Positions 2,988-24,296 of a stretch of DNA of 64,000 nt are shown here, in pieces. The stretch is from Bacteroidota bacterium (lineage in GTDB: Bacteria > Bacteroidota > Ignavibacteria > Kapaibacteriales > Kapaibacteriaceae). The number at the start of each line of letters is the position of its first letter. Positions within the stretch are counted from its first letter, which is position 1. The notes beneath the pieces were generated by a model. The model ran no database searches, was not told the DNA's origin, and saw only the letters and a program-made list of their open reading frames with translations. Where the stretch lies: the NCBI GenBank assembly GCA_018266735.1, contig JAFDZT010000009.1, positions 62,001 to 126,000 of the forward strand. The letters run 5' to 3'. The position numbers and the translations under genes are program-made.

Positions 2988-4892
2988 GTGCCGGAACCAA
3001 TCAAGACATTGCCGACGACCTTCAAGTGCGAAGTATTCCGCGCTGGTACGCAGACTGACTCTGCCGGCAACTCGAAGGAGTGGACGATCGAGGATCTGAA
3101 TACGATCGCCGACAACTTCAACGAGCAAGACCCCAAGGATCGCATCGATGCCCCTGCTACCATCGGGCATCCCGCTGACAACCACCCAGCCTGGGGATGG
3201 GTGAGCAAGCTCTGGGTTGAGGATGACACACTCTGGGCCGAGTTCAAGGACTGCCAGCCCCAGTTCATGGAGCTGCTCGACAAGAAGATGTTCACGTCGC
3301 GCTCCATCTCCCTCTATGCCGATTCACTCCGCCTGCGCCACGTCGCCTTCCTTGGTGCTGCTCAGCCGGCCGTCAAGGGCCTCGAAGAGATGGCCTTCAA
3401 GGGTAGCGGCGCGATCCTGTCGTTTGCCATGGATGGTGCTCCTGCCATCACACCGACCGAAGCTGCCGGCGGCAAGACACTCGACGAGTTACTGGCCGAG
3501 CAAGAAGCTCGGTCGAAAGCATGCGGCATCTCTGTCAAGGAATCATCGGTCGGCTTCCTCGTGAAGCCTGTTGCATTTGCGAGTGTTCCCGATGAGCAGT
3601 TCGCCGATCCCGTGCACTACCGTTTCCCGTTTGCGACCGAAGGTCAGATCCGTTCTTCGATGCGACTCTTCAACGAGTGGCAGATCCGCGAGGCTTATGC
3701 AGAGCAGGAACGTCAGGTGATTCTGACCAAGCTCATCGATGCTGCCCTCGCTGCCGGCATCGATCTCGAGAAGAACTACATGTTCACCGAGGCAGGTAAC
3801 AATAAGGGGAAAACTGTACGCGATGAGCGAGCACTAAAGTTCGCGCTTCCCGTCTTGCAGGGTAAGGGTTTCGATGAGGTGCCGGAGAAGTACTCCGAAC
3901 TTACGGTCGACGATTTCGCCGACCCTGTTAACCTGCGCTTCCCGCTTGGGTCAAAGTTTATTGCAGCAACCATCGCCACGTGGGGTCGCGAGGATGTGCG
4001 CAAGGATTACACAGAACAGCAACAGGCTACGATATCCGCGCGCGTTATCAAAGTAGCATTGGCCGATGGCTATAACCTCACGAGTCACGCATGGGCGATT
4101 CGCGAAACGTATAGTGATCACGTAGACGTACCAGCCGAAATACTTTCCAAGAAGCAACTCATCGATGTGGTGGGCCGCATGGGCGGAGCTGCACCTGTAG
4201 CCGATCAAGTACCAACACCAACTTCCACCAACTATGGAGGTTCTTCCGTGAACGAAGAACTATTCAAGCAGTTCCTTGAGGAACTCTCTGCCTATGCCTC
4301 GGAGGCGTATGGCGAAGAGGTCGCTACGGCACTCGCGGCCAAGGCCAACGAGCTCAAGGACAAGTACATGCAGATGGCCGCATCAGCGAACGCTGATCCC
4401 AATGCACAGGCAGGTGCGGGCACTGCAGCAGGCGTGACGAACAACGCCGAGCTTGCAGCCGCCAACAAGCGCATCGCTCAACTCGAATTCAACGAACGCC
4501 GTACCGGCTTCCTTTCCTTCGCAGACGGGCTCATTAACGAGCACCGCATCCTGCCGAAGCACAAGGACCAGGTGGTTGGTCTTCTCGAGGCAGCTCACTC
4601 GCGCGGCGAGATCAGCTTCTCCGAAGGCGACGTTGTGAAGAAGACGGGCAACGAGTCGCTCCTGCGTGACTTCCTCAAGAGTCTCGAGCCGCAGATCGCT
4701 GTCGGTGAGCAGGCAACCGGTAACCGTGCAGGTGCACCACAAGCCGGTGGCAGCGAGTTCGCTGAGGCGCAAGCCGAAGAACTTCTTGCTGACAAGAAGA
4801 TCACATCATACCGGGAAGAGCAAGCAAAGGCAGGACGCACGCTGTCCTACCTGCAGGCTCTCTCTGAACTCGAAACTCAAGGAGCGATCTAA
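2988..4892 (+). CDS. Phage capsid maturation protease-scaffold fusion (Mu gpI-like)
   Basis: Processes and scaffolds the prohead. Residues 1-140 look like the Mu I-type head protease: GHP at 60-62, PAWGWV at 67-72, TLWAEF at 81-86, SRSISLY at 104-110 and LRHVAFLGAAQPAVKG at 116-131. The last 215 residues are an acidic helical scaffold. Between them is an unusual insert (about residues 175-410) with two copies of a domain beginning FADPV-x-x-RFP. The GTG start is supported by GAGGG about 7 bases upstream and by the protease fold beginning immediately. At 634 residues it is longer than usual for this family. It overlaps the major capsid gene at TAATG. Confidence 0.85.
   Translation: MPEPIKTLPTTFKCEVFRAGTQTDSAGNSKEWTIEDLNTIADNFNEQDPKDRIDAPATIGHPADNHPAWGWVSKLWVEDDTLWAEFKDCQPQFMELLDKKMFTSRSISLYADSLRLRHVAFLGAAQPAVKGLEEMAFKGSGAILSFAMDGAPAITPTEAAGGKTLDELLAEQEARSKACGISVKESSVGFLVKPVAFASVPDEQFADPVHYRFPFATEGQIRSSMRLFNEWQIREAYAEQERQVILTKLIDAALAAGIDLEKNYMFTEAGNNKGKTVRDERALKFALPVLQGKGFDEVPEKYSELTVDDFADPVNLRFPLGSKFIAATIATWGREDVRKDYTEQQQATISARVIKVALADGYNLTSHAWAIRETYSDHVDVPAEILSKKQLIDVVGRMGGAAPVADQVPTPTSTNYGGSSVNEELFKQFLEELSAYASEAYGEEVATALAAKANELKDKYMQMAASANADPNAQAGAGTAAGVTNNAELAAANKRIAQLEFNERRTGFLSFADGLINEHRILPKHKDQVVGLLEAAHSRGEISFSEGDVVKKTGNESLLRDFLKSLEPQIAVGEQATGNRAGAPQAGGSEFAEAQAEELLADKKITSYREEQAKAGRTLSYLQALSELETQGAI
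4248..4892 (+). CDS. Nested scaffold protein from internal GTG start
   Basis: In frame within the protease gene, a strong GGAGG at 4236-4240 sits 7 bases before a GTG at 4248. This falls exactly where the repeat insert ends and the helical scaffold begins. Translation from here would give a separate 214-residue scaffold, as in the lambda C/Nu3 and Mu I/Z pairs. The product is rich in Ala, Glu and Lys and ends at the shared stop. Seen: ribosome site, spacing and domain boundary. Inferred: that it is used. Confidence 0.65.
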   Translation: MNEELFKQFLEELSAYASEAYGEEVATALAAKANELKDKYMQMAASANADPNAQAGAGTAAGVTNNAELAAANKRIAQLEFNERRTGFLSFADGLINEHRILPKHKDQVVGLLEAAHSRGEISFSEGDVVKKTGNESLLRDFLKSLEPQIAVGEQATGNRAGAPQAGGSEFAEAQAEELLADKKITSYREEQAKAGRTLSYLQALSELETQGAI

Positions 4893-5815
4893 TGGCCACA
4901 TCACGCCAATATGACATTGCCACAGCCAATCCGGTGTTGACGAACGTTGTTCGTGGCTACGGCAACAACAGCTTCGTGGCCGACCAGATCCTGCCGATCG
5001 TTGAGGTCGACAGCGAAGTGGGCACGTACCGTGACTTCGGCGCAGATCGCTTCAAGATCTACGACACGGTGCGTGCATTGCGTGCAGACTCGAACCGAGT
5101 CCCGGCCGCATCGCAGCGACGCCTGCCGTACAACCTCGACGAGCACGATCTCGAGGAACCGATCGACTACCGCGAGCAGGCCTCCGACATGAAGCGTCAG
5201 GCCAACGCTGCCAACCGTGTCGCCGAACTGCTCACGCTGGCTCGCGAGTCGCGCGTTGCGACGCTCGTGCAGGCATCCGGCACCTATGCCGGTGGCCACT
5301 CGTCCGCGCTTTCGGGCACGAACCGCTTCTCGCACGACTCGTCGGATCCTGCTGCTTTGATCGCAAGTGCCAAGGCCACGGTGGCCAGCAAGATCGGCGC
5401 AGATCCGAACCTGCTCGTGCTCTCGCACGATGTGTACTTGCGTCTGCTCGTGCACCCTGCCATCAAGGAACTCATCAAGTATGCCGGCATCGGCGTACCG
5501 ACGATCGAGAGCCTGAAGACGATCTTCGACGTGGAGAAGATCATCGTCGGCAAGGGCGTGTATCAGGCGCAGGGTGCAACGTCCTTCACGAAGCTCTTCT
5601 CGAACACGTGTGCGCTCCTGTTCGTGAATCCGTCTACGGTTCCCGACGAGGAGAACCCATCCTTCGGCTACACGCTTCGCAAGAAGGGCATGCCGACAGC
5701 CGATGTCTACAGCGGTCCGGGCGGCAAGGTCACTCTCGTTCGCTCGACCGACATCAACAAGTCGATCGTGATGGGCAACACGAGTGGCTTCCTCTACACA
5801 AGCGTCTTGTCGTAA
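4892..5815 (+). CDS. Major capsid protein
   Basis: The main shell protein of the phage head. The 307-residue product follows the protease-scaffold gene directly (stop and start overlap at TAATG), the standard place for this gene. It begins with the ATANPVLTNV-type N-terminus, has DQILPIVEVDSEVGTYRDFG near residue 30-50, and has later segments (VDVEKIIVGKGVYQ-like and a GGKVTLVRSTD end) typical of capsid proteins that build HK97-like folds without a cleaved delta domain. Identification rests on context and general pattern. No strong link to one named coat family was visible. Confidence 0.85.
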   Translation: MATSRQYDIATANPVLTNVVRGYGNNSFVADQILPIVEVDSEVGTYRDFGADRFKIYDTVRALRADSNRVPAASQRRLPYNLDEHDLEEPIDYREQASDMKRQANAANRVAELLTLARESRVATLVQASGTYAGGHSSALSGTNRFSHDSSDPAALIASAKATVASKIGADPNLLVLSHDVYLRLLVHPAIKELIKYAGIGVPTIESLKTIFDVEKIIVGKGVYQAQGATSFTKLFSNTCALLFVNPSTVPDEENPSFGYTLRKKGMPTADVYSGPGGKVTLVRSTDINKSIVMGNTSGFLYTSVLS

Positions 5816-5825
5816 GGAGCTACCG

Positions 5826-6074
5826 ATGCCTAAGTACACCATCCACGGCACATCCGTTCTGCACAATGATACGCTCTACGAAGAAGGCTCGACAATCGAG
5901 TTGACCAAGGAAGAAGCGCAACCGCTTGCTGCTGTACTCACCGAGATCAAGGCTACCTCTGCGAAGAAGGATCCTGATCCCAAGCCCACTGCTTCCGGTA
6001 AGGAAGGCTCGTTCACACCACCGACAGGGGATGCCGGTGGTGATTCAAACACCAATCTGACGGGGACAAACTAA
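5826..6074 (+). CDS. Small phage protein after the capsid gene
   Basis: An 82-residue protein, start chosen at the ATG after AAGGAGCTACCG. Its N-terminal half (YTIHGTSVLHNDTLYEEGS, then IELTKEEAQPL) is like small proteins often found beside capsid genes that describe a bounded beta strand followed by an acidic helix. The C-terminal part is Lys/Pro/Gly-rich and likely disordered. It overlaps the next gene by one base. Function is unknown; a minor head or decoration role is inferred from position only. Confidence 0.7.
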   Translation: MPKYTIHGTSVLHNDTLYEEGSTIELTKEEAQPLAAVLTEIKATSAKKDPDPKPTASGKEGSFTPPTGDAGGDSNTNLTGTN

Positions 6075-6511
6075 TGTCGTCCAAGACAACACTTATCATG
6101 GGCATGGCCACGGTGATCGCTGGTGCCGACGTTGTAAGGAACCGCTTCCTTACTGCTGATGGCGAGTACTGCGGTGCCGGCGCAAAGGCCCTCGGAGTTA
6201 CCGACGAGAAGGCACTCGACGGCGAGGCATGTCCCGTCGCAATCGGCGGCATTGTGCTGGTCGAATCGGGTGACGCCATCGTCCTCGGTGCCGGCGGCAT
6301 GGTTGCCATCAAGTCCGACTCAACGGGACGCGCTGTTCCGGCGACAGCATTTTCCGTGACCGTCCCGGGAACTGGAACTGCTGTCACTTCCAATGCCGCA
6401 CAACCGGATCTCACCGAGGCCGGTGGTGTGCTGCCGGAGATCGTCAACGGCTACGCCCTCGATGCAGCATCGGGAGCAGGCGAGCTCGTACGCGTGAAGC
6501 TTTGCGCTTGA
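6074..6511 (+). CDS. Capsid decoration (cement) protein, DUF2190-like
   Basis: A 145-residue glycine/alanine/valine-rich beta protein that matches the pattern of DUF2190 capsid cement proteins: an N-terminal strand region, ALGVTDEKALDGEACPVAIGG, a VVESGDAIVLGAGG-type turn, and a C-terminal NGYALDAASGAGELVRVKL strand. Such proteins bind between capsid subunits from outside and stabilise the shell after expansion. It sits between the small protein above and the head-completion genes, as in Mu-like and related siphophage clusters. Confidence 0.8.
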   Translation: MSSKTTLIMGMATVIAGADVVRNRFLTADGEYCGAGAKALGVTDEKALDGEACPVAIGGIVLVESGDAIVLGAGGMVAIKSDSTGRAVPATAFSVTVPGTGTAVTSNAAQPDLTEAGGVLPEIVNGYALDAASGAGELVRVKLCA

Positions 6512-6515
6512 TATC

Positions 6516-6932
6516 GTGAGCGCATACTGCACCATAGCAGATGTCGAAAGGGAGCTCGGTTCAGCACGGCTGACCGAGCTCTCCAACGACGAGCAGAAGG
6601 CGACGACTCCAAACGAGGAACTCGTTACCGCCCTGATCGCGAATGCGTCCGATCTCATGGACGGATACCTGCGTGGTCGCTATGGTCTGCCACTCGCTTT
6701 CACGAGCGAGATCCTGCGGGATGTGTGTGCAACGATCGTCAAGTACAGACTCTATCGGCATCGTCAATTGAAGATCTCCGAACAGGTGCAAGCCGAGTAC
6801 GACGAGGCTGTCTCGCGTATGAAGCAGATCCAGTCAGGCAAGATCATTCTTGGCGAAGGAATCACCAAGTCGGAACCACGTCAGTTCGCATCCAACTCGC
6901 GCACCTCGGCCTTCGATACTTCGAGGTGGTGA
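6516..6932 (+). CDS. Head completion protein, Gp36/DUF1320-like
   Basis: A 138-residue helical protein. The N-terminus (CTIADVERELGSARLTEL), the central IANASDLMDGYLRGRYGLPL and the later RDVCATIVKYRLYRHR are the hallmarks of the DUF1320/Mu Gp36 family, adaptors at the head-tail connector. It starts with GTG, 4 bases after the cement protein stop. The next gene is the Gp37-like partner, as in Mu-type gene order. Confidence 0.85.
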   Translation: MSAYCTIADVERELGSARLTELSNDEQKATTPNEELVTALIANASDLMDGYLRGRYGLPLAFTSEILRDVCATIVKYRLYRHRQLKISEQVQAEYDEAVSRMKQIQSGKIILGEGITKSEPRQFASNSRTSAFDTSRW

Positions 6933-7344: not shown

Positions 7345-7608
7345 ATGGAAGAGAGAGACGAAACGGGGTGGCAGAAGTGGGTTCTTGGAATCACCGCCAC
7401 AGTGATCACGACGGGCATGGGCCTGCTGTTCATGACGCTCGTTGGTATGAGCAGTGATCTCGCAGTGGTAAAACGCGAGGTCGAATACTTATCTGCTCAG
7501 TCCATCGAAGCCAATGCGTTTCGGTCGAACATCGATGGCAAGGTGAACGAGATGCGCTTGCAGATCCAGAGACTTGAAGACCGAGATCATACGGAGGTTC
7601 GACGATGA
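7345..7608 (+). CDS. Small membrane protein with coiled coil (holin-like)
   Basis: An 87-residue protein with one membrane segment at about residues 14-36 (GITATVITTGMGLLFMTLVG region) followed by a helical, probably coiled-coil tail (VVKREVEYL to QRLEDRDH). This layout is common for phage holin-associated or antiholin-like proteins. Its stop overlaps the start of the next membrane protein (ATGA), and a CHAP lysin follows, so a lysis role is inferred. Confidence 0.65.
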   Translation: MEERDETGWQKWVLGITATVITTGMGLLFMTLVGMSSDLAVVKREVEYLSAQSIEANAFRSNIDGKVNEMRLQIQRLEDRDHTEVRR

Positions 7609-7874
7609 AGAACTGGAAGAAGGTAATGGCAATCGGATGGGTACTCGGCATCGTTGCATCCGTGTATGCGCTGAACGTGAACCCACAGCTTTCGGCACCT
7701 GCGATGTTTACGCTCATCCTGATCATGGGATTCTCGGCGCAAACTGTCTGGGACATGGTTCTCTTCGGAGATGTTGACACGAGGGATGAGATCATCAACA
7801 AAAGGAACGTGGCGTATGCGATCACTCTTTGTATCCCTGCTCTGCTTGTCCTCGCTGCTGCTCTCGTCAAGTAG
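7605..7874 (+). CDS. Putative holin with three membrane segments
   Basis: An 89-residue protein with three hydrophobic stretches at about residues 7-24, 32-52 and 69-88, and a basic N-terminus (MKNWKK). Size and topology fit a class I holin that times cell lysis. The lysin gene begins within its coding sequence at 7816, in another frame, which suggests coupled expression. No sequence motif defines holins, so this is a topology-and-context call. Confidence 0.65.
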   Translation: MKNWKKVMAIGWVLGIVASVYALNVNPQLSAPAMFTLILIMGFSAQTVWDMVLFGDVDTRDEIINKRNVAYAITLCIPALLVLAAALVK

Positions 7875-8442
7875 CCAACCTCATGTAGACACTGCTCTCA
7901 CCTACGTCGGATATGCTGAACATGGAAACAATCGCGGTCATCTTGTCGACACTTGGAATCGTAATGTCGGTGCTCCTCTTGGTAGCCCTTATTGCGCCAG
8001 CTTCGTGTCTTACTGCCTTGACCGTGCTCATGCACTTAGTCCTCGAGTTCGATCGGCATCGTCACGCGCCTTCGCTGCATCTGGATCGATATCAGCAGAT
8101 AAAGTACTACGAGGAGAGTACATCCCACAGCGTGGAGATCTGGTCATCTGGAGACGGACGCCGACACTGGGCCACATTGGTATCGTCACCGAAGAGTGGC
8201 GCAAAGCCAGGGGGAGAACAGTTGAGGCCAACACCTCCAACGGGGAATCAGGATCGCAATGGAACGGGGGCGGGGTCTACGAACGGATCCGTTCGGTAAG
8301 CCTATACAATCACTTTCGGATCACGCACTTCGTGCCGGTTCGATACGCTAATGATCGCGGAGTAGTTCAGTGGTTAGAACGCGGGGTTCATTACCCCGAT
8401 GTCGCAGGTTCGAGTCCTGCCTCCGCAACCACACAACACTGA
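7816..8442 (+). CDS. CHAP-domain endolysin whose 3' end runs through a tRNA gene
   Basis: A peptidoglycan amidase/endopeptidase of the CHAP (NlpC/P60-like) type. The ATG at 7816 follows AAAGGAAC and is followed by a signal peptide (MRSLFVSLLCLSSLLL). The catalytic cysteine lies in SPYCASF, and the histidine in LGHIGIV about 70 residues later. The natural domain ends near HFVPVRY (base about 8346). The frame then stays open through the complete tRNA gene at 8356-8431, so the last 29 residues are tRNA-derived; it stops at 8442, where the next gene may begin (TGATGG). Genes with a Sec signal here would export the lysin without depending wholly on the holin. Confidence 0.85.
   Translation: MRSLFVSLLCLSSLLLSSSSQPHVDTALTYVGYAEHGNNRGHLVDTWNRNVGAPLGSPYCASFVSYCLDRAHALSPRVRSASSRAFAASGSISADKVLRGEYIPQRGDLVIWRRTPTLGHIGIVTEEWRKARGRTVEANTSNGESGSQWNGGGVYERIRSVSLYNHFRITHFVPVRYANDRGVVQWLERGVHYPDVAGSSPASATTQH
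8356..8431 (+). tRNA. Phage tRNA-Met (CAU), with initiator-like features
   Basis: A full 76-nt cloverleaf with encoded CCA. Acceptor CGCGGAG/CTCCGCA pairs at positions 2-7, but position 1 is C opposite A72, the mismatch that marks bacterial initiator tRNA. D stem GTTC/GAAC; anticodon stem CGGGG/CCCCG (three consecutive G:C pairs next to the loop, also initiator-like); loop TTCATTA with CAT at 8389-8391; T arm GCAGG-TTCGAGT-CCTGC. Against a standard initiator, the 11:24 pair is T:A rather than A:T, and base 37 is T where a purine is usual. It could be an initiator mimic or a diverged elongator. Confidence 0.9.
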
Positions 8443-8966
8443 TGGACACGATGCACAACGATCGACTGACAGCCCTGCTCATGCTGGCTCTCATCTTCAC
8501 CCTGATCGGTGGATGCATCGGATGGTTCCTGAAGCCCTGCCCCTGCGATGGGGCAGCTCCTGTCGGTGGAGAGATCAAGCGCGACACGATCCGCGAGGTA
8601 CGCTTCATTCCGCCGTTCATGGCCGAAGGCAAAGCGAAGGTCCGTCGCACCACTCGCACGGAGCATGACACAGTGTTCCTCCCTGCCGAGATCACTGATG
8701 AGATCGTTCCGGATGACGATATCCCGAAACCCGACTACGTGGCCACCCTCGACACGATCATAGGCAAGGACACAGCATCGCTTCGTTACGACTACCGATC
8801 GCTGCTCTTTGCTGTTGATCTGCGTCGCGCTCCGGATAGCATCAACTACGTCACGACCACCATCACCCTGACCAAGTACGAACAACGGCCATGGTGGATC
8901 GATGCGCTTACGCACGTCGGTGCAGCCACACTCGGATTCGCATTCGGTCAATCACAAGGGAAGTAA
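8442..8966 (+). CDS. Phage membrane-anchored protein of unknown function
   Basis: A 174-residue protein starting at ATG 8442 (overlapping the lysin stop) or at ATG 8451. One hydrophobic segment at about residues 10-34 contains LIGGC, a weak lipobox-like site. The remainder is soluble, with repeated Arg-Asp-Thr patterns (KRDTIREV, TRTEHDTVF), resembling small Bacteroidota phage proteins located beside lysis genes. A spanin-like role is possible from topology and position but unproven. Confidence 0.6.
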   Translation: MDTMHNDRLTALLMLALIFTLIGGCIGWFLKPCPCDGAAPVGGEIKRDTIREVRFIPPFMAEGKAKVRRTTRTEHDTVFLPAEITDEIVPDDDIPKPDYVATLDTIIGKDTASLRYDYRSLLFAVDLRRAPDSINYVTTTITLTKYEQRPWWIDALTHVGAATLGFAFGQSQGK

Positions 8967-23048: not shown

Positions 23049-24101
23049 TCAAAGCGACGGCATCTTATCCATCCCATCCCGTCGCTTCTTGTCGATGATC
23101 TTCGCGTAGATCATTGTGTTCTTCAGGTTCTTATGGCCAAGTAGATCCCGAACGGTCATGATGTCGACGTCATACGAAAGTGCGAGCGTGGCGAACGTAT
23201 GTCGTGACACGTGGAACGTTATGTGCTTCGAGATCTTAGCGGCCGCAGCCCATCTCTTCAGGTTCTTGTTGGTATGATCATCAGACAGCAAGGCGAACAC
23301 TCGTCCTCCTGCAGCGGGTCGCTCACCAAGTAACTCCGTCGCGGCCGTAGTGAGCGGGATCCGCACCATGTCCTGCGTCTTGCCTTGGCGGAGCGTCACC
23401 TGCTCATCGCGTATCTGATCCCACGTCAACGAGTTGATGTCCGACCAGCGCAGACCGGTGAAGCATGCAAAGAGGAATGCTCGCTTTGTCTCCGGACTAC
23501 CGATGGGTGTTTCGTTCAGTTGCTTCAGCTCTTCGATCGTCAGGTACGTTCGATCGGAATCCTTGCGGCCGATGCCCTTGACCTTCTTGGCCGGGCTGGC
23601 AGGTATGAGATCGTCGCGCACGGCAATGTTCAGTGCAGCAACGAACTTGTCGTAGTAGGTCGCGGCCGAGTTCGTTGAAACGTGCTTGAGAAGGAACGCC
23701 TGAAAGGACTGGATGAGTGACGGTGTGAGGTCGGCGAACGTCGTGCGTTCGTCGAAGAACCTTTCGACGTACTTGCAAGAGTTGGTCCAGGGCTTGCTGT
23801 TCTTCTGTCCGGCAAGCTCTTTGAAGTAGTCTACAAAGCGTACGTTTGCATGAGAGACTGCCGGCAGCCCGAGGCGTCGTGATCGATGCTCATCGATGCG
23901 GCGTGAGAAGATGGCCAGTGCCATGCGGTTTGCTTCCGCATCCTGTTCGCGCTTACCGATCAGCTGCAGGCCCAGGTACTCGAGTCGCCGTGGACGCTCA
24001 GAGCTGAAGTCAATGAAGATCGTCCACTTGCCGTTGGCTCTCTTGCGAGCGGCGAGCGTCATGCCTTCGGCTTTGGCGATCACTCGATAGTTGGGGGTCA
24101 T
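23049..24101 (-). CDS. Tyrosine-recombinase integrase
   Basis: Catalyses integration and excision at the attachment site next to it. A 350-residue protein: N-terminal arm-binding part, SAM-like core-binding domain at about 85-170, and catalytic domain from about 185. Catalytic residues are visible in order: R218 in TGLRWSDI, K241 in RQGKTQ, H297 and R300 in HVSRH, H323 in LGHKN and nucleophile Y332 in MIYAKI. Full length, none missing. The gene reads away from attR, 124 bases from it. The ATG at 24101 is the only good start. Such enzymes are common in Bacteroidota temperate phages that use tRNA genes. Confidence 0.95.
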   Translation of the reverse strand: MTPNYRVIAKAEGMTLAARKRANGKWTIFIDFSSERPRRLEYLGLQLIGKREQDAEANRMALAIFSRRIDEHRSRRLGLPAVSHANVRFVDYFKELAGQKNSKPWTNSCKYVERFFDERTTFADLTPSLIQSFQAFLLKHVSTNSAATYYDKFVAALNIAVRDDLIPASPAKKVKGIGRKDSDRTYLTIEELKQLNETPIGSPETKRAFLFACFTGLRWSDINSLTWDQIRDEQVTLRQGKTQDMVRIPLTTAATELLGERPAAGGRVFALLSDDHTNKNLKRWAAAAKISKHITFHVSRHTFATLALSYDVDIMTVRDLLGHKNLKNTMIYAKIIDKKRRDGMDKMPSL

Positions 24102-24225: not shown

Positions 24226-24255
24226 GTCTCGTGGGTTCGAATCCCGCCACGCTGA
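24226..24255 (+). other. Probable attR: 3' fragment of a tRNA gene
   Basis: The sequence reads as the 3' part of a tRNA: T stem GTGGG (24231-24235), T loop TTCGAAT, T stem CCCGC, acceptor strand CACGCTG and discriminator A at 24255; CCA is not encoded. There is no matching 5' half upstream, so this is the fragment left when a phage integrates into a tRNA gene. The intact gene, restored by the phage copy, should be at the left prophage end, beyond the window. The isoacceptor cannot be named from this piece. Confidence 0.8.
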
Positions 24256-24258
24256 CGT

Positions 24259-24296
24259 ACGTCCAAGGATCTTCATCAGGTGCTTGGACGTTTTTT
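24259..24296 (+). terminator. Intrinsic terminator of the host tRNA locus
   Basis: Stem ACGTCCAAG (24259-24267) with CTTGGACGT (24283-24291), a 15-base loop, then six T bases. It lies 4 bases after the tRNA fragment, so it is most simply the original terminator of the tRNA gene into which the prophage inserted. Confidence 0.85.

Follow-up and report, generated by a model that had tools for sequence, protein, structure and literature searches.

An initiator-like tRNA(CAU) gene lies within the lysin reading frame of a Bacteroidota prophage

Whole tRNA genes nested in protein-coding frames have been described in Alphaproteobacteria, in which tRNA-Sec (selC) lies inside selB and a non-stop model has been proposed (Mukai 2021, PMC8124441). 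Phage-borne tRNAs have been discussed in other terms. One proposal holds that they carry anticodon-loop changes resisting host tRNA nucleases, and the same paper reports that tRNA-fMet tended to be avoided by phages in cases in which the anticodon itself is targeted (PMC10264068); enteric VapC toxins cleave the anticodon stem-loop of tRNA-fMet (PMC5408214). In some mycobacteriophages, phage tRNAs play a role in tRNA-dependent lysogeny (PMC10865867). Here we compare these systems with a tRNA gene found in the lysis cassette of a prophage from a Bacteroidota bacterium. The whole stretch of DNA that was analyzed, referred to as the window, comprises 64,000 nucleotides (positions 62001-126000 of contig 13 of genome G000) and takes in the right-hand portion of a temperate-phage genome of 46.5 kb (prophage length 46462). 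Its head genes (2988-6932) are followed by the lysis cassette (7345-8966) and then by tail genes. A minus-strand gene at 1447-2775, whose product joins a ParB-like N-terminal domain to an N6/N4 DNA methyltransferase, adjoins the gene for the small terminase subunit. The features of the lysis cassette, in window coordinates, are:

7345-7608 and 7605-7874, plus strand: two small membrane-type proteins encoded before the lysin
7816-8442, plus strand: CHAP endolysin with a signal-peptide-like N-terminus, its frame passing through the tRNA gene
8349-8354, plus strand: TAATGA, two successive stop codons where the ancestral lysin ended, shifted by one base from the lysin frame
8350-8439, plus strand: 30-residue lysin tail NDRGVVQWLERGVHYPDVAGSSPASATTQH (N194-H223), mostly translated tRNA and absent from all relatives
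8356-8431, plus strand: tRNA(CAU) of 76 nt, mostly initiator-like, with an encoded CCA (from ARAGORN, Rfam and the predicted fold)
8440-8444, plus strand: TGATG, in which the lysin stop overlaps ATG 8442, where the next gene likely starts
8442-8966, plus strand: small protein with an N-terminal hydrophobic stretch and a lipobox-like cysteine, its coding frame taken from codon usage

The open reading frame at 7771-8442 (+) matches the Pfam CHAP family (PF05257; E 2.5e-8; 34.7 bits against a cut-off of 26) and the PHROG endolysin group (E 7.9e-15). The catalytic Cys and His are conserved, the C and GH columns being invariant in an alignment with the relatives. Translation likely begins at ATG 7816 rather than at 7771, with a signal-peptide-like N-terminus. 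The two small proteins encoded upstream, for which no family match was found, are candidate holins. A preliminary description of this DNA had claimed that a complete, CCA-bearing tRNA lies wholly inside the lysin frame, which stays open through it and stops 11 bases beyond its end (at 8440-8442); ARAGORN, Rfam and the open reading frame all bear this out. It had also described the last 29 residues of the lysin as translated tRNA. The tail is indeed mostly tRNA, but the figures differ, as 25 whole codons of the lysin frame fall within the tRNA and 30 residues extend past the ancestral C-terminus. AlphaFold2 models the CHAP core well and predicts that the tail is unstructured (pLDDT 42-53, for a segment that has no homologs in the alignment).

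The arrangement is like that of selB and tRNA-Sec in that the 3′ part of a protein frame encloses a whole tRNA and the stop overlaps the start of the next open reading frame (here the likely start at 8442), and in that processing would leave a non-stop message. The two cases differ in the tRNA and the gene involved, and in their distribution. The overlap of selB with its tRNA is widespread across species, whereas here it is seen in one prophage only, and the lysins of the relatives stop before the tRNA.

An open frame through a tRNA is in itself common. The same frame is open in 35 of 76 distinct tRNA sequences (46%) from the host and its relatives, many of which encode nearly the same peptide (...VAQWLE...VAGSSPA...), and random DNA of the same composition remains open over 29 codons ~34% of the time. 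We considered the open frame as a sign of coding selection and rejected it, given that 46% of the tRNAs share this property. The lysin tail reads as an ordinary, stereotyped translated-tRNA peptide, and the puzzle is the absence of a lysin stop before the tRNA, not the openness of the tRNA. On the opposite strand, two open reading frames cover the tRNA, at 8348-8695 (-) and 8391-8951 (-), and contain the peptides RRQDSNLRHRG and AGLEPATSG; these are typical of translated antisense tRNA, and the frames are likely spurious.

Related lysins indicate where the stop used to be. Eight of them, from other prophages and 27-47% identical to that of the window, terminate either at window position 8349 (...THFVPVRYA) or no more than a few residues away from it, and in a relative on contig 38 of G031 (L101) the C-terminal PVRYA finishes with the codons GCG TAA. 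At the old lysin end the window reads CGA TAC GCT AAT GAT, the assembly sequence at the out-of-frame stop site being CGATACGCTAATGATCG. Since tandem stops are rare (~0.001 per position) and a pair of them lies out of frame at the ancestral end, the loss of one base at the old stop would be the simplest and most likely origin of both the 30-residue tail and the nesting. The same rare, out-of-frame TAATGA would also be expected from a sequence or assembly error, in which case the true genome would retain the missing base and the lysin would stop at this site, just ahead of the tRNA, as in the relatives. The assembly does have at least one flaw, an NN within the host tRNA-Met gene. An error nevertheless seems to us unlikely, if far from negligible: the slip site contains no homopolymer longer than 2 and the coding signal, as judged by codon usage, reveals no clear frame breaks elsewhere in the window, which together favor a real change, and the genome is rated 100% complete in 13 contigs. 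The preliminary description had named an earlier stop, reached by frameshift or sequencing error, as one finding that would count against it. Stops one base out of frame are what we find in the consensus, in which a real loss and an error would look alike.

The tRNA itself is well defined. The only tRNA that ARAGORN reports for the window is Met(CAT), at 8356-8431 (+), and the Rfam tRNA family matches it with 64.2 bits (gathering score 29; E 1.2e-11). Its minimum free energy structure is a cloverleaf with the conserved loops (-31.9 kcal/mol, z -3.97), and 0 of 200 shuffled sequences fold as well. Bacterial initiator tRNAs are marked by the lack of a Watson-Crick 1:72 pair, by G2:C71, C3:G70 and G4:C69, by GGG:CCC in the anticodon stem, and by a purine 11:pyrimidine 24 pair. 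Like them, the window tRNA has a CAU anticodon, an acceptor stem (CGCGGAG/CTCCGCA) that opens with C1xA72 followed by G2:C71, C3:G70 and G4:C69, and GGG:CCC at 29-31:39-41, the last of which is absent from two CAU tRNAs of genome G052. Unlike them, it has U11:A24 in place of the A11:U24 found in the other phage tRNAs and in host fMet, carries U37, and shows C.A rather than the host's C.U at 1:72. Because U11:A24 is not an initiator mark, and with U37 also odd, its sequence leads us to class it as initiator-like rather than as an initiator; both features are unusual for a working initiator tRNA.

To place this tRNA in context, we examined 77 unique lysin loci from the class and scored a tRNA as nearby when it lay within 1.5 kb. 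Six of these loci have a nearby tRNA, in every case downstream of the lysin and on the same strand, with a CAU anticodon in five and Gly-TCC in one. Three of the six start 7-13 nt past the lysin stop, the window tRNA is nested, and the remaining two lie at 479 and 751 nt. The same arrangement is seen in another family of the same order, in genome G052, where two prophages each carry a tRNA(CAU), starting 13 and 10 positions past the lysin stop. On contig 25 of G039, a tRNA-Gly(TCC) (L161:1951-2022) starts 7 positions past the stop of a CHAP lysin. On contig 1 of G129, which belongs to a different family of the class, a CAU tRNA with an odd anticodon arm (L230:2700-2775) lies 751 past a CHAP lysin stop. 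Under uniform placement, finding three of five tRNAs within 13 nt after the stop has P ~1e-7 (P values here and below assume independent loci, and two of the loci come from one genome).

Base pairing was compared in a set of five tRNAs, made up of the window tRNA, three further CAU tRNAs from phages, and the host initiator. The pairs of the D, anticodon and T stems are all standard, ten pairs show changes of both partners, and four of the five tRNAs retain the 1:72 mismatch. In the relatives, the lysin stop precedes the tRNA by 9-12 nt (6 nt in the Gly-TCC case), and the tRNA could therefore be excised without harm to the lysin. Nesting was not seen in the other five tRNA-bearing lysin loci among the 77; the nested state is known from one sequence, in one prophage. 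These observations support the tRNA as a genuine-looking and recurrent part of lysis cassettes. That phages of this class repeatedly carry a CAU tRNA directly behind the lysin, with no host-type promoter, is the more solid and perhaps the more useful result, and with this recurrent neighborhood the long-standing question of why phages carry tRNAs can be tested in a concrete case. The viral contigs that were searched contain no close relative of the phage or its tRNA, and annotated phage records returned only weak matches to Microcystis phage lysins.

The anticodon arm may offer a clue to function. The anticodon region of host fMet (TCATAACCCG) is identical in the host and in all five other genomes for which an fMet match was listed, and all four initiator-like lysis-cassette tRNAs differ from host fMet at position 37, 38 or 39. 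Such changes would fit the nuclease-resistance proposal. As in the phage tRNAs for which that proposal was made (PMC10264068), the departures from the anticodon arm of the host lie near positions 37-39; unlike those, the window tRNA is a single promoterless gene in a lysis cassette and is initiator-like. The host has three PIN-domain genes. The most likely job of the tRNA would be to act as a nuclease-resistant, initiator-like tRNA late in infection. Alternatively, its fold could be a processing signal that separates the lysin message from the downstream message and does not function in translation, a role in keeping with the odd anticodon loop and its U37 and with the placement of these tRNAs at gene junctions. 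We consider this improbable: CCA is encoded, the acceptor stem and 1:72 mismatch are kept while other positions vary, and the recurrence of CAU in five of the six cases would not be expected of a mere processing site.

TAnnTTTG is a promoter motif of Bacteroidetes. Of 37 host tRNA genes, 23 have it in the 75 nt preceding the gene, versus none of the six cassette tRNAs (P 0.006), a comparison that relies on this one motif and in which the motif is absent from 14 of the 37 host genes too, some of them inside tRNA clusters. The motif, Bacteroidetes and promoters occur together in PMC6847099. Between 7300 and 9600, no sigma-70-type promoter or terminator was found. With no host-type promoter at the tRNA, its production should require cutting of the lysis transcript, and we infer that the tRNA is probably cut out of it. 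The preliminary description had held that maturation of the tRNA cuts the lysis mRNA. What stands of this is the lack of a host-type promoter and the fact that such a cut would remove the only in-frame stop of the lysin; the cutting itself is probable.

On balance, we favor, with measured confidence, an explanation in which the phage makes its initiator-like tRNA only by excision from the lysis transcript, and in which a one-base slip nested the tRNA and gave the transcript an either/or output. The tRNA(CAU), which the phage encodes in its lysis cassette and which is mostly initiator-like, would be excised from the lysis transcript. The slip would have put the TAA TGA of the lysin out of frame, such that the frame now crosses the tRNA, its end falling on the codon with which the next lysis gene likely starts. 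Cleavage by RNase P before 8356 would yield the tRNA together with a stop-less lysin message for tmRNA, whereas an uncut transcript would yield full-length lysin with a passive 30-residue tail. Each transcript would then produce either tRNA or lysin, not both, and the downstream message would start ~10 nt before ATG 8442 after the cut. The host has tmRNA.

The either/or output may instead have been selected, with the nested tRNA keeping the amount of lysin low until a late stage, on the model put forward for selB and tRNA-Sec. The architecture is that of the selB case (PMC8124441), including the stop-start overlap (TGATG at 8440-8444), and tmRNA is present in the host. We find a selected switch improbable all the same, as nesting was seen in no other tRNA-bearing lysin locus, the tail is an ordinary translated-tRNA peptide, and TG follows 15% of TGA anyway. 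Quite improbable, too, is a built-in switch in which excision by RNase P destroys the lysin message, lysin is made only when late transcription outruns processing, and the cut supplies a nuclease-resistant, initiator-like tRNA. Regulated timing, or a selected regulatory switch, is possible but unsupported. The initial suggestion that the arrangement couples tRNA production, lysin expression and timing finds no support as a claim of selected coupling: relatives stop before the tRNA, nesting is seen in one prophage only, and a one-base slip would account for it.

The right end of the prophage allows a comparison with tRNA-dependent lysogeny and contains two relevant features:

23049-24101, minus strand: tyrosine integrase of the prophage
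24229-24259, plus strand: attR, an exact 31-bp repeat of the 3′ end of host tRNA-Pro(GGG), with its other copy, at the opposite prophage end, at C13:39797 (L173:1298-1328)

As in tRNA-dependent lysogeny (PMC10865867), a temperate phage carries a tRNA gene and its tyrosine integrase uses a tRNA attB. Unlike in that system, integration leaves the attB tRNA rebuilt, and the phage tRNA and the attB tRNA differ in isotype: the site of integration is host tRNA-Pro(GGG), restored at the left end of the prophage. We asked whether the lysin tRNA is an attachment site or replaces a host tRNA destroyed by integration, roles with a precedent in some mycobacteriophages (PMC10865867) and for which the host elongator tRNA-Met, which looks broken in the assembly, might seem to speak. 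This is extremely improbable and was rejected, since the att repeat contradicts it. Integration took place in tRNA-Pro, and therefore the lysin tRNA is not the attachment site; the 31-bp repeat rebuilds the tRNA that was used, the lysin tRNA lies in the interior of the prophage, and the break in host tRNA-Met consists of two Ns in an otherwise syntenic gene.

We also rejected the prophage tRNA as the sole elongator tRNA-Met of the host, a candidate raised when no more than three CAU tRNAs turned up intact in a genome-wide search. The chromosomal gene exists at G000 C6:78284-78348 (L063:105-169, -), syntenic with its counterpart in G001. It contains two Ns, lacks several bases of the anticodon and variable regions, and is missed by ARAGORN; the interruption is probably an assembly gap. 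The genes for tRNA-Glu(TTC), Ala(TGC) and Ile(GAT) were not found in the G000 assembly, rated 100% complete. Ala(TGC) and Ile(GAT) tRNAs usually sit in rRNA operons, and those operons of G000 are probably unassembled.

Downstream of the tRNA, the product of the gene at 8442-8966 is a candidate spanin-type lipoprotein, for which no informative family match was found; similar-looking genes adjoin the lysin in relatives. An alternative start lies at ATG 8451, and the start called by the ORF finder at 8370, inside the tRNA, is probably spurious. The TGATG overlap is weak evidence of coupling, since a TG follows ~15% of the TGA triplets of the window by chance. In the relatives, the lysis genes look translationally coupled, and since such overlaps occur in relatives that have no tRNA, the stop-start overlap of the window may have restored coupling after the tRNA entered. 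In two G031 prophages without a tRNA (L100 near 2371 and L101 near 1938), the lysin stop overlaps the next start (ATGNGTAA), and a TAATG overlap of the lysin stop with the next start is seen in L153.
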